Positions 29,562 through 33,414 of a stretch of DNA of 64,000 nt are shown here, one piece after another. Position 1 is the first letter of the stretch, and each line of letters begins with the position of its first letter. The stretch spans positions 1 through 64,000 of the forward strand of contig NZ_PDOA01000017.1 of NCBI RefSeq assembly GCF_003116135.1, in the 5' to 3' direction. The notes under the pieces were generated by a model. The model was not told where the DNA came from. It was given only the letters and a program-made list of their open reading frames with translations, and did not search any database. The stretch comes from Teichococcus aestuarii. Its GTDB lineage: Bacteria; Pseudomonadota; Alphaproteobacteria; Acetobacterales; Acetobacteraceae. The translations under genes were made by a program, and so were the position numbers.

Positions 29562-29564
29562 GCG

Positions 29565-29588
29565 GTGCGGGGCCGCACGGCCCCGCAC
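29565..29588. terminator. Hairpin terminator between convergent genes
   Basis: A 10-bp perfect stem (GTGCGGGGCC / GGCCCCGCAC) with loop GCAC sits right after the phosphoribosyltransferase stop and is followed by CTCTTTCGT. It is eight bases from the stop of the convergent DoxX gene. Confidence 0.7.
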
Positions 29589-29596
29589 CTCTTTCG

Positions 29597-30016
29597 TCAC
29601 CGCGTTGCGGGGCGCGGCGGCACCGGCAGCCAGGCATCCAGCGCCAGCCGTCCGCCGCCGCGCACCGCCACCCAAAGCAGGCAGGCCGCCCAGACGCCAT
29701 GCGTCGGCCAGGCGCCCGGGTAGACGAAGAGCTGGATCACCAGCGTCATCCCCAGCAGCGCCAGCGCCGCCAGCCGGCTGCCCAGCCCCAGCACCAGCAG
29801 CAGCGGGAAGGCGTGCTCGGCCGCCGCCGCCAGCACCGCCGCCACGCCGGGGTCCAGCAGCGGCAGGGCGTATTCGTCGCGGAACAGCTCCACCGTGCCG
29901 GGCGCCAGGGCGAAGCCCTCCACCTTGGTGCGGCCGGACTGCCAGAAGATGGCGGCGGGGAAGACGCGGCTGGCCAGCAGCAGGCCATCCTCCAGGGTCA
30001 GGGCGGGGCGGTTCAT
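29597..30016 (-). CDS. DoxX family membrane protein of the bufferin operon
   Basis: 139 residues with four membrane helices and the family features [17 protein letters not shown] and RDEYALPLL. DoxX proteins are quinone-linked or redox-associated membrane proteins, and they accompany DUF692 and DUF2063 genes in many metal-stress operons. The ATG overlaps the stop of the DUF2063 gene by four bases (ATGA), so it is the last, translationally coupled gene of the run. A role in membrane electron transfer or maturation of the peptide is inference. Confidence 0.88.
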
Positions 30017-30822
30017 GCGGGGGCTCCATGGCTGCGCGGGCCGCGTTCCTGACGGAAGGCGCCCTGGCCGATGAGGATGGAAAGCACCGAGGGCAGGTCG
30101 AGGCCGGGATGCCCGGCGAGGGCCTGCCCGGCGGCCTCACCCAGCGGCCGGCCCGCCGCCAGGGCACGGGCGAGGGCCACCCCCCCGGGCGGCAGGCGGT
30201 GCACCAGCACGGCCTGGTGCGGCCGTGTCACCAGCGCCGCCTCCGGCTGCCAGGCGGAGAGGGGCCCGAGCGGCATCTCGCCCACCTGCATCGCCCAGAT
30301 CGTCACCACCGGCTGCGCCGAGGCCAGCAGCCGCAGCGCCGGGTGGGGCCGCAGCACCCGCCGCTCCAGCCCCCCATCGGCGGTGGCGAGGGCGGCGAGG
30401 GAGAGCGGCGGCGCATCGGCGGCATGGAAGGCGCGGGCGCGCGCATCCTCCAGCCGCAGCAGGTCCGGCAGGTAGGGCAGCGCGGCGGCGGGCGGGAAGC
30501 CGGCCACGAAGCGCGGGAAGCCGCCGCCATAGGCCAGCATCGCCGGCGAGCGCGGCGGGTGGCAGCGGGCATAGGCGGCGGCCATGGCGGCGAAGAAAGC
30601 CTCGCCCACCACGGCCTGCCCGGCCGGGTAGCGCGCGGCCAGCGCCGCCACCAGCCCGGACAGCACGTTGTTGCGGTGGACGGCGAAGCGCCGCTCCGGC
30701 GCCTCGCCCGGCAGGGGGCGCAGCGGCGCTGGCAGCGGCGCCGCCGGGTCCAGCAGCGCGGCGGCGAGCGGCGCCGTCGAGGCGTCGGCCGGCAGCGGCG
30801 GGCGGGGGGCGGGGGCGATCAT
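30013..30822 (-). CDS. bufC: DUF2063 protein, probable MNIO partner (BufC-like)
   Basis: 269 residues. The N-terminal half has the DUF2063 putative DNA-binding-domain signature ([43 protein letters not shown]). In RiPP systems this protein family acts as the partner that presents the precursor peptide to the DUF692 oxidase, rather than as a DNA-binding protein. Its ATG overlaps the oxidase stop by four bases, and its own stop overlaps DoxX. The C-terminal half is poorly conserved but retains VTIWAMQVG. Confidence 0.88.
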
Positions 30823-31676
30823 GCCGCCCGCCGTGTCCGGGCCGGTTGCAGCAGCGCCTCGGCCCGTGCTGCCTCGCGCAGCAGCACCGGCCAGGGCGGC
30901 ACGTCATTGTCCCATTCGATCAGCGTCGGCAGCGGGCCGGTCGCCTCCAGCAGGCGGGCGTAGAGCGCCCAGACCGGGTCGGCCACCGGTGCGCCATGGT
31001 CGTCGATCAGCAGCGGCGGCCCCGCCTCCGGGCCGGTGGCGGCGGCATGGCCGGCGAGATGGACCTGCCGCACAGCGTGCAGCGGGAAGCATGCCAGCTC
31101 GGCCGCCGGGTCGGCGCCGCGGTTGCGCGCGGCGACGTAGAGGTTGTTGACATCGAGCAGCAGGAAGCAGCCGGTGCGGCGGGCGACCTCGGCCAGGAAC
31201 GCGCCCTCCGGCATGGTCTCGCCGGCGAAGGCGACGTAGCTGGCCGGGTTCTCCAGCAGCATCGGTCGGCCGAGCGCCGCCTGCACCGCGTCCACATGGC
31301 GGGCCACCCGCGCCAGGGTCTCGGGCGTGTAGGGCAGCGGCAGCAGGTCGTTGTAGTAGATCCCGTCATGGCGGGACCAGGCGAGGTGCTCGGAGAAGCT
31401 CTCCGGCGCGTAGCGGGCGCAGAGCCGGCGCAGCCGCGCCAGATGCGCCCGGTCCGGCGGCGCCATGCCGCCGATCGAGAGGCCGACGCCATGCAGGGAG
31501 AGCGCATGGTCCTGGCGCAGCCGGGCGAGCTGGGCGTGCGGCGCGCCGCCTTGGCCCATGTAGTTCTCGGCATGCACCTCCAGGAAGCCCACCGCCGGCG
31601 GCGCGGCGATGATCGCTTCGAAATGCGCCGGCTTGAAGCCGAGCCCGGCGCGGGGAGGAAGGCGGGGTTCGGGCAT
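30819..31676 (-). CDS. bufB: DUF692 multinuclear non-haem iron oxidase (MNIO), BufB-like
   Basis: 285 residues, normal DUF692 length. Candidate iron ligands of the TIM barrel are all present: E37-N38 in HAENYM, H62 in SLHGVG, E96-H97 in SEHLAW, E142-N143 in ENPASY, D175-N177 in LDVNNLY, H206 and H210 in QVHLAGH, D226-H227 in IDDHG and E254 in IEWDND. Relatives (MbnB, TglH, ChrH) modify cysteines of peptides; here the substrate should be the DUF2282 peptide encoded just upstream. ATG 31676 follows GGGAG. The stop overlaps the next gene by four bases. Confidence 0.93.
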
Positions 31677-31750
31677 GGCGGTGCTCCCGGCAGGGGGGCG
31701 CAAGGGGGGAAGGGCGGCGGGCTGGCCCGCCGCCACGGGGCCGGCCGGTG

Positions 31751-32041
31751 TCAGGCCGGGCGCTTGATCGGCGTCAGCGAGCCGGGGCCGTGCGGGGTGC
31801 CCATGGTGGTGCAGGTGCCGGCGGGCACCAGCTTCCAGGCATTGCCCTGGTAGTCGACCTTGGAGGTGCCGGCGCAGGTGGTGCCGGGGCCGGCGGCGCA
31901 GCCATTCTGCCCGGCCAGGGCAACGCCGTAGCATTTCTCGGTGGCGGCCTGCTGCGCGGCGGCCGGGGCGGCGCCCAGCGCCAGGGCCGTGCCGAGCGAG
32001 CCGAACAGCGCGAGGGCGAGGGTGGAGGAGGTGGAAGCCAT
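31751..32041 (-). CDS. bufA: DUF2282 four-cysteine secreted peptide, bufferin precursor (BufA1-like)
   Basis: 96 residues: a cleavable signal peptide (about 1-30, ending APAAAQ) and a small mature part with exactly four cysteines at 37, 48, 56 and 77, opening [17 protein letters not shown]. This is the DUF2282 pattern. In characterised bufferins the cysteines are post-translationally modified by the DUF692 oxidase and the product binds copper in the periplasm. GGAGA precedes ATG 32041. First gene of the operon; 74 bases separate it from bufB. The tail [15 protein letters not shown] is an added histidine/proline-rich end. Confidence 0.92.
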
Positions 32042-32090
32042 GGGTCTGTCTCCGTGGTCGGCGGGGCCGGAAGCGGCCCACGGAGGCGGT

Positions 32091-32116
32091 TACGGCCTGG
32101 CGAACCCCGGCATTAC
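32091..32116 (-). promoter_or_regulatory. Candidate ECF-dependent promoter of the bufferin operon
   Basis: On the minus strand GTAATG (32116-32111) is followed after 16 bases by CGTA (32094-32091), about 50 bases upstream of the bufA start. It is a close but imperfect copy of the motif facing the sigma gene (GTAACG-N16-CGAA). Assigned by pattern only. Confidence 0.5.
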
Positions 32117-32150
32117 ACGGCACGGCGGCGGAATATTTTCCCGGCGCCGC

Positions 32151-32176
32151 GTAACGTCCCGCCCCTGGGCGCCGAA
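32151..32176 (+). promoter_or_regulatory. Candidate autoregulatory ECF promoter of the sigma gene
   Basis: GTAACG (32151-32156), a 16-base spacer and CGAA (32173-32176) lie upstream of the sigma gene. As I recall, the sigma-F consensus reported in Caulobacter is GTAACC-N16-CGAA, so this agrees in nine of ten defined bases. The position predicts a short 5' leader. Confidence 0.6.
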
Positions 32177-32241
32177 CGGAGGCAGGCGCATGCAGCACAG
32201 GGGAGGCCGGGCTGACGGAGGATGAGGAATGGTCCGGCTGG

Positions 32242-32760
32242 ATGCAGGCCGGCCTGGCCGGCGACGCCGCGGCCTACCGGCGCCTGCTGGAGGCGCTGAC
32301 GCCGGTGCTGCGGGCGCGGGCGCGGCGCGGCTTCCAGCGCGCCGGCCTGCCGCCGGCCGAGGCGGAGGACGTGGTGCAGGAGGCGCTGCTGGCCATCCAC
32401 CTGAAGCGCCACAGCTGGGACAGCGCGCGGCCGCTCGGGCCGTGGCTGGCCGCCATCCTGCGGCACAAGCTGGTCGATGCGCTGCGCCGCCGGCCCGCCG
32501 CGGCGCATGTGCCGATCGACGACCTGCTGGAGATCCTGCCCGCCGAGGCACCACCCGAGCCGGTGCGCGGACACGAGCTGGACCGGCTGCTGGCGCAGCT
32601 CGGCGCCCGCCAGCGGGACATCGTCCAGGCCCTCACGGTCGAGGGGCTTTCCGCGCGGGAGGCGGCGCAGCGCCTCCGCATGTCCGAGGGCGCGGTGCGC
32701 GTCGCCCTGCACCGGGCGCTGAAGACCCTGGCCCTGCTCACCGGAAGGCAAGCCGCATGA
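32242..32760 (+). CDS. sigF: ECF sigma factor (SigF-like) divergent from the bufferin operon
   Basis: 172 residues with region 2 (about 10-75, [18 protein letters not shown]) and region 4 (about 115-165, [25 protein letters not shown]). It should direct RNA polymerase to metal-stress promoters, including the adjacent operon. ATG 32242 is the first conventional in-frame start. However, a CTG at 32212 is preceded at ideal spacing by GGGAGG (32201-32206) and would add [10 protein letters not shown], which reads like a genuine ECF N-terminus. The stop overlaps the anti-sigma start as ATGA, so the two are coupled. Confidence 0.92.
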
Positions 32761-33395
32761 ACACCACGGAACTCATCAACGCCCTGGTGCAGGACCAGGC
32801 AGCGCCGCGCTGGCGCCTGCCCGCCGCGCTGCGCATCGGGCTGGCGGCGGGGGCGGTGCCGGCCGCGCTGGCCGTGCTGCTGTGGCTGGGGCCGCGCGCC
32901 GGCCTGCTGGCGCTGCTGCCCACCGCGCCGCTGCTGCTGAAATTCGCCACCACCCTGGGCCTGGCCCTCTGCGCCCTGGCGCTGACGCTGCGCCTGGCGC
33001 GGCCCGACGGCACGCCCGGCGCCTGGCCCTGGGGCCTCGCGACGGTGGCGCTGCTGCTGGCGGGCGGCGTGGCGCTGGAGCTGGCCCTGGCGCCGGCCGC
33101 CGAATGGGGCGCCCGGCTGCGCGGACAGAACGCCCTGGCCTGCCTGATCCTGGTCCCGCTGCTGGCCCTGCCGCCGCTGGCCGGGCTGCTGCTGGCGCTG
33201 CGCCAGGGCGCGCCGCGCCGGCCGGGGCTGAGCGGCACCCTGGCCGGGCTGGCGGCCGGCGGCGTGGCCGCCGCGCTCTACGCCCTGCACTGCGTCGACG
33301 ACAGCCCGCTCTTCCTGGCGATGTGGTACGGGCTGGGCATCGGATTCACCGGCCTGCTGGGCGGGCTGGCCGGCCGGATCTGGCTGCGCTGGTAG
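32757..33395 (+). CDS. nrsF: NrsF (DUF1109) membrane anti-sigma factor
   Basis: 212 residues, mostly hydrophobic, with about six membrane helices and a short cytoplasmic N-terminus ([14 protein letters not shown]) characteristic of DUF1109/NrsF. It should hold the ECF factor at the inner membrane until a signal such as copper or another oxidising metal arrives. In Caulobacter NrsF two conserved cysteines matter for sensing; here cysteines are seen in ALACLILVP and ALHCVDDSP. The four-base overlap with the sigma gene enforces balanced synthesis. Confidence 0.92.
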   Translation: MNTTELINALVQDQAAPRWRLPAALRIGLAAGAVPAALAVLLWLGPRAGLLALLPTAPLLLKFATTLGLALCALALTLRLARPDGTPGAWPWGLATVALLLAGGVALELALAPAAEWGARLRGQNALACLILVPLLALPPLAGLLLALRQGAPRRPGLSGTLAGLAAGGVAAALYALHCVDDSPLFLAMWYGLGIGFTGLLGGLAGRIWLRW

Positions 33396-33414
33396 CGGGC
33401 GCCGCGCGGCGGGC

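Follow-up and report, generated by a model that had tools for sequence, protein, structure and literature searches.

In a 2025 survey of MNIO enzymes (PMC12452194), bufferin cysteines are converted to thiooxazoles and the peptides protect against copper, genes for a sigma factor and NrsF accompany Buf1 but not Buf2 clusters, and gig operons are counted as bufferin clusters. Copper binding and a 5-thiooxazole have been described for the related EGKCG type (PMC13097082). A six-gene layout in which a sigma/anti-sigma pair diverges from the peptide operon has been published for Caulobacter (CC3252-CC3257, with sigF/nrsF; PMC3511200), Sinorhizobium meliloti (SMb20527-SMb20532, with rpoE7/ecfR7; PMC6180224) and Cupriavidus metallidurans (gigPABT-rpoQ-rsqA; PMC10304878). 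In Caulobacter these genes are SigF-dependent (PMC3511200), copper raises the SigF regulon in either medium and either cell type, with two of the values counting only when no fold-change cut-off is applied, and a sigF::Tn5 mutant is copper-sensitive (PMC8224329). Here we describe a locus of this kind from Teichococcus aestuarii, at positions 29597-33395 of a 64,000-nucleotide stretch, hereafter the window (NCBI RefSeq assembly GCF_003116135.1, contig NZ_PDOA01000017.1, positions 1 to 64,000). The locus is very probably a Buf1-type bufferin biosynthetic operon equipped with its own SigF/NrsF switch.

All six genes of a self-regulated bufferin-type set are present, in a layout already known from several bacteria (Table 1). 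An earlier note, made from the letters of the DNA, had described a run of DUF2282, DUF692, DUF2063 and DoxX genes diverging from an extracytoplasmic function (ECF) sigma gene and an NrsF gene, and all six frames lie where it had placed them. The four-base overlaps it reported among the last three operon genes (bufB/bufC at 30819-30822, bufC/doxX at 30013-30016) and between the sigma and NrsF genes (32757-32760) agree with our coordinates; bufA and bufB do not overlap, with 74 bp between them. The Pfam search that the note had proposed placed each of the four operon proteins in its expected family, and all six proteins of the locus scored above gathering cut-offs (for Sigma70_r4_2 in the sigma factor, 48.1 bits against 25.7). 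The note's remark that such genes would be annotated as four DUFs is dated, as the curated NCBIfam model ‘MNIO family bufferin maturase’ now accepts BufB. It had also held that the reading would fall if the oxidase stood nearer to MNIOs acting on unrelated precursors; when we compared BufB with the curated models, MNIO_BufB (NF050167) scored best, at 369.5 bits with a cut-off of 310, ahead of HvfB (216.1, cut-off 360), ApyH (100.4), MbnB (44.1) and ChrH (40.5).

We took as relatives the best 80 of 579 stretches confirmed in a GTDB genome scan. In 56 of these 80, bufA and a divergent sigma gene lie within 1.5 kb of each other; in the remaining 24 the sigma gene lies downstream on the same strand or elsewhere, was undetected, or is cut off by the contig end. 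The parallel that the earlier note drew with Caulobacter and with the gold-induced gig genes is right, and the rarity it implied for back-to-back modules gives way to an arrangement that is common (Caulobacter, S. meliloti, C. metallidurans and the 56 relatives). Caulobacter shares with the window the same six families in the same order, a divergent sigma/NrsF pair, an NrsF with two conserved cysteines and promoters of the SigF type on either side (PMC3511200, PMC8224329). It differs in that its regulon also takes in a second buf operon (CC2907-2905) and MsrPQ genes, whereas the window genome has one MNIO match, one DUF2282 match and no strict promoter motif (see below) at PF00174 genes. In S. 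meliloti, the authors call rpoE7-ecfR7 and SMb20530-SMb20527 (ECF16) orthologous to Caulobacter SigF-NrsF and CC3254-CC3257, and some strains, as well as S. medicae, lack the set altogether (PMC6180224). The gigPABT genes of C. metallidurans resemble the window locus in forming a divergon with sigma and anti-sigma genes, in their DUF2063 and DoxX-like members, in a four-cysteine precursor and in being induced by copper and gold, but the organism is betaproteobacterial and dependence of gig on rpoQ was not shown there (PMC10304878). The window locus provides a clean example of the bufferin/SigF/NrsF combination in a Pseudoroseomonas-type acetobacterium and leaves knowledge of the system unchanged. 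Among the relatives, the Rhodobacteraceae-type loci L026, L040, L070 and L071 carry the sigma/NrsF pair after doxX and in the same orientation, not divergent from the operon.

By its sequence features the operon is of the Buf1 type, comprising a four-cysteine DUF2282 precursor with a signal-like segment, a bufferin-type MNIO, a DUF2063 partner and DoxX, the last being frequent in Buf1 operons and not obligatory. BufA begins with a hydrophobic signal-like segment that runs to AAAQ at about residue 30, with the cleavage site judged by eye, and downstream of it lie Cys37, Cys48, Cys56 and Cys77, each of which is kept in 104 of 104 aligned rows. The alignment drew on 104 loci and the window, with the P. 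coralli genome entered twice (L038, L123); at L103, tblastn found no BufA, yet a partial DUF2282 match is present there. Many His, Asp, Glu and Asn positions of BufB are likewise conserved in more than 90% of 104 rows. BufB and BufA are the sole matches to PF05114 and PF10048, respectively, in the 5.2-Mb, 106-contig assembly. We considered and rejected an HvfB/oxazolin (EGKCG) type of MNIO cluster: the BufA sequence contains no EGKCG repeat, and the HvfB, HvfC (24.2 bits, cut-off 142) and HvfX-family (NF050144; DoxX at 47 bits, cut-off 80) scores all fall below their NCBIfam cut-offs. Many Hyphomicrobiales loci (L003, L007-L009, L011, L015 and others) have two tandem bufA copies ahead of bufB, and the window has one.

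The regulatory half of the locus has the build of a SigF/NrsF pair, an ECF sigma gene (245.2 bits to NF009165, cut-off 198) overlapped by an NrsF gene whose product has two conserved cysteines. Both of these, Cys129 and Cys179, are present in all 66 aligned rows in which NrsF was found. By position, and not by alignment with the Caulobacter protein, they would correspond to C131 and C181 of Caulobacter NrsF, replacement of which raises SigF-dependent expression (PMC3511200). The first ATG, GTG or TTG after the preceding in-frame stop of the sigma frame is at 32242, but the sigma factor probably starts upstream of this ATG, because homologous rows share residues ahead of it and the candidate CTG at 32212 is preceded by a good ribosome-binding sequence, GGGGAGG. 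A 388-amino-acid frame running from an ATG at 32229 into the NrsF frame (32229-33395, plus strand) was discarded as a probable artefact of G+C-rich DNA, since it crosses the well-supported sigma gene in a different frame.

The roughly 200 bp shared by the two transcription units carry GTAAC-N16/17-CGA-type promoter boxes facing both ways, in agreement with the printed S. meliloti sequences, with the target-side box deviating. In S. meliloti the boxes read TGTAAC-N16-CGA before rpoE7-ecfR7 and TGTAAC-N17-CGA before SMb20530 (PMC6180224; spacings counted here), unlike the TGTAAT...CGT of the window on its buf-ward side. Using the form TGTAAC/T or VGTAAC, N16-18, CGA/CGT, we searched the 58 rows with a divergent layout (the 56 relatives, the window, and L083, which duplicates the L038 locus). 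The sigma-ward motif was found in 58 of 58 rows and the buf-ward motif in 56 of 58, with misses in L035 and L057, such that 56 of 58 rows (window included), or 55 of 57 distinct genomes, have motifs in both directions; mononucleotide shuffles gave means of 1.68 and 1.74 rows for the single directions and 0.14 for both together. A strict pattern, BGTAAC-N17-CGW, which the buf-ward box of the window does not fit, occurs at 18 places in the whole assembly, one in the window, three on a contig designated C33 and 14 elsewhere. By a simple gene call, seven of these 14 overlap a gene, five have no called downstream gene in the same direction and two lie upstream of one.

Table 1. Coordinates of the features of the bufferin locus within the window.
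Feature	Position	Strand	Evidence or remark
Stretch missing from the closest relative found, G207 (locus L147)	29562..33414	.	63 bp instead, between two convergent flank genes
Probable terminator	29564..29594	+	Perfect 11-bp G+C-rich hairpin at 29564-29589, then TCTTT; -33.7 kcal/mol, z -3.9
DoxX membrane protein, gigT-like, 139 aa	29597..30016	-	PF07681, 62.4 bits (gathering cut-off 23.6)
bufC, DUF2063 partner protein of MNIO, 269 aa	30013..30822	-	PF09836, 78.4 bits (27.2)
bufB, MNIO (formerly DUF692) bufferin maturase, 285 aa	30819..31676	-	PF05114 MbnB_TglH_ChrH, 346.8 bits (25); NF050167
bufA, DUF2282 precursor, 96 aa	31751..32041	-	PF10048, 86.7 bits (22.4)
SigF-type box pair towards bufA	32092..32117	-	TGTAAT-N17-CGT; motif search
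SigF-type box pair towards the sigma gene	32150..32175	+	CGTAAC-N17-CGA; motif search, fits strict pattern
SigF-type ECF sigma factor, start uncertain (CTG 32212 or ATG 32242)	32212..32760	+	NF009165, Sigma70_r2, Sigma70_r4_2
NrsF (formerly DUF1109) membrane anti-sigma factor, 212 aa	32757..33395	+	PF06532, 170.8 bits (26.8)

Induction, sigma release, peptide modification and copper binding are all modeled here on the relatives. Periplasmic metal stress, most probably copper with chromium, cadmium, gold or silver as possible alternatives, would act on the two conserved cysteines of NrsF and set the sigma factor free from the membrane, a release that has been shown in Caulobacter for dichromate (PMC3511200). 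The freed sigma factor would then fire the two divergent promoters, one driving the sigma-NrsF genes and the other bufABC-doxX. BufC would present the BufA precursor to BufB, which is predicted to oxidise BufA cysteines to thiooxazoles; the peptide, exported by Sec, would buffer periplasmic copper, and DoxX would add a membrane or redox function that is as yet undefined.

Copper buffering is the function that the relatives support best, and by analogy it would be the role of the locus in T. aestuarii. It is unlikely that the operon makes a bufferin whose main duty is instead another stress (chromate, cadmium, gold, silver, sulfur, or oxidative stress via DoxX), although SigF targets in Caulobacter answer to chromium and cadmium independently of oxidative stress (PMC3511200), gig is gold-induced (PMC10304878), and the authors of the MNIO survey anticipate functions other than coping with excess copper for many MNIO-linked precursors (PMC12452194). 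Loss of sigF in Caulobacter left chromium and cadmium sensitivity unaltered (PMC3511200), but caused the sensitivity to copper already mentioned (PMC8224329), which speaks for copper as the main duty.

Several findings weigh against the reading of a Buf1 operon under its own SigF/NrsF switch. The motif form used across the relatives was not blind, being set by the known type of box together with the window itself, and it had to admit GTAAT to accommodate the buf-ward box. Over the 64-kb window this pattern is expected 0.46 times and at least two matches arise in 7 of 100 shuffles, so that two matches are not rare. YedY/MsrP, a SigF target in Caulobacter, has no counterpart here with the strict motif: PF00174 matches lie at four places in the assembly, one of them below cut-off, and none is at any of the 18 strict motif places. 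The signal segment of BufA has no basic residue ahead of its hydrophobic stretch, and none of NrsF, BufC and DoxX reaches the cut-off of its narrower NCBIfam equivalog model (for NrsF, 98.1 bits to NF042994, cut-off 300). Among the relatives, neither rpoE7 of S. meliloti nor the promoter it targets reacted to H2O2, cadmium or chromate (PMC6180224), and deletion of rpoQ in C. metallidurans raised, rather than lowered, gig expression in metal-treated cells (PMC10304878).

The rpoQ result and the variant TGTAAT box also favour a different arrangement, in which control of the buf operon rests not with the local sigma/NrsF pair but with a second pair on C33 or the housekeeping sigma factor, or in which the two pairs cross-talk. 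NrsF indeed occurs at two places in the window genome, the second beside a sigma gene on C33 with a GGTAAC-N17-CGA box pair upstream. We nevertheless regard such outside control as improbable. The two pairs differ, with only 41% identity between the sigma factors and 36% between the NrsF proteins in matched segments, and three of the 18 strict motifs lie on C33 itself; the C33 pair therefore has an obvious regulon of its own. Moreover, several alphaproteobacterial orders share the divergent promoter pair, a signature that predicts control.

The six genes occupy different chromosomal sites in different species of the genus and are absent from most. Counting the window genome in both cases, DUF2282 occurs in 22 of the 200 genomes sampled from the family, and 3 of the 17 genomes of the genus have an MNIO gene. 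Pseudoroseomonas coralli (locus L038; its BufB is identical to that of genome G162) and a second genome of the genus, G208, have the same six genes in the same layout, with BufB 70-72% identical, but with chromosomal neighbours different from those of the window. The window flanks are a NAPRTase-like gene, judged from sequence, and a prephenate-dehydrogenase-like gene (PF02153), set tail to tail. Among the 16 further genomes of the genus we inspected 10 at this site and found it uninterrupted (<200 bp) in six, namely G207, G162, G016, G202, G210 and G211; the NAPRTase of G207 is 96% identical to that of the window. In G208 the site holds a gap of ~1.0 kb with no buf matches, in G201 and G203 the second flank gene was not found within the 12-kb stretch, and in G107 the flanks are on different contigs. 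The flank genes of the P. coralli cassette are, in turn, ~0.9-1.0 kb apart in the window genome (contig C106), G207 and G208, too close together for the site to hold the cassette. The window and P. coralli genomes each lack the cassette at the site that the other uses.

A quick tree of BufB (101 rows, arbitrary root; short or partial L086, L090 and L101 left out, and L099 without a BufB match) joined the window and G208 proteins as sisters (SH-aLRT 99). Together with the G162 protein they fall inside a 42-row group, mostly Hyphomicrobiales (support 94, branch not starred), while 15 of the 18 other family rows lie in a distant clade and three (L084, L085, L095) outside it. This tree alone does not separate gain from loss. 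The G+C content is 0.769 in the cassette and 0.721 in the remainder of the window, and similar rises are seen in G162 (0.749 vs 0.710) and G208 (0.709 vs 0.674). We rejected this as a signature of foreign DNA, because G+C at third codon positions (0.90-0.97) resembles the values of the measured neighbours (0.92-0.96), the rise coming from first and second codon positions, and because it recurs in G162 and G208. No mobility gene is among the six genes of the cassette, and no insertion-sequence or repeat traces were seen by eye at the borders in the printed flanks. The patchy presence of the set might suggest a decaying or non-functional acquisition, which we consider barely credible given six open frames with neighbour-like third positions, key residues kept and both promoter boxes in place.

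On balance, we favour the view that the six genes, with the 200-bp divergent promoter between them, make up a compact, ~3.8-kb self-regulated cassette that is gained and lost as a unit within the genus, which would be a portable copper buffer that brings its own switch. The different sites of the set among closely related genomes, and its absence from others, are what is new here and the less ordinary point. Near relatives offer matched sites with and without the module, so its contribution to fitness can be tested. The putative terminator hairpin (Table 1) lies between the upstream NAPRTase-like gene and doxX. No RNA family at gathering score and no tRNA was found within the window.

The strict promoter motif seems under-represented in the T. 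aestuarii genome, where the reversed control pattern occurs at 133 places. At L171 (contig C41, 383993-384018, minus strand) it stands ~140 bp before a gene resembling the ATP synthase delta subunit, and at L175 ~240 bp before a membrane-protein-like gene; each may be either a target or a chance match. On the 23.7-kb contig C33, one of the three GTAAC-N17-CGA boxes precedes an arsenosugar-like gene group, another the sigma gene of the pair and the third a MerA-like reductase gene; this region (L152, 4139-12243) looks like a separate SigF-type regulon. The arsenosugar-like group comprises TIGR04282- and TIGR04283-like glycosyltransferases and an ArsS-like radical SAM protein, none of which reaches its NCBIfam cut-off, and the MerA-like reductase is accompanied by a VTT membrane protein.

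Elsewhere in the genus, G203 (L149, 6681-9676) and G202 (L148, 6744-9699), neither of which gave an MNIO match, have an NrsF/sigma pair divergent from a catalase-family gene followed by cytochrome b561; the catalase match (PF00199) was tested in G203, and the G202 genes were matched by eye to those of G203. The SigF/NrsF switch thus seems to be coupled to different outputs in the genus, and the presence of two SigF/NrsF pairs with different neighbours in the window genome offers a natural test of SigF/NrsF specificity.

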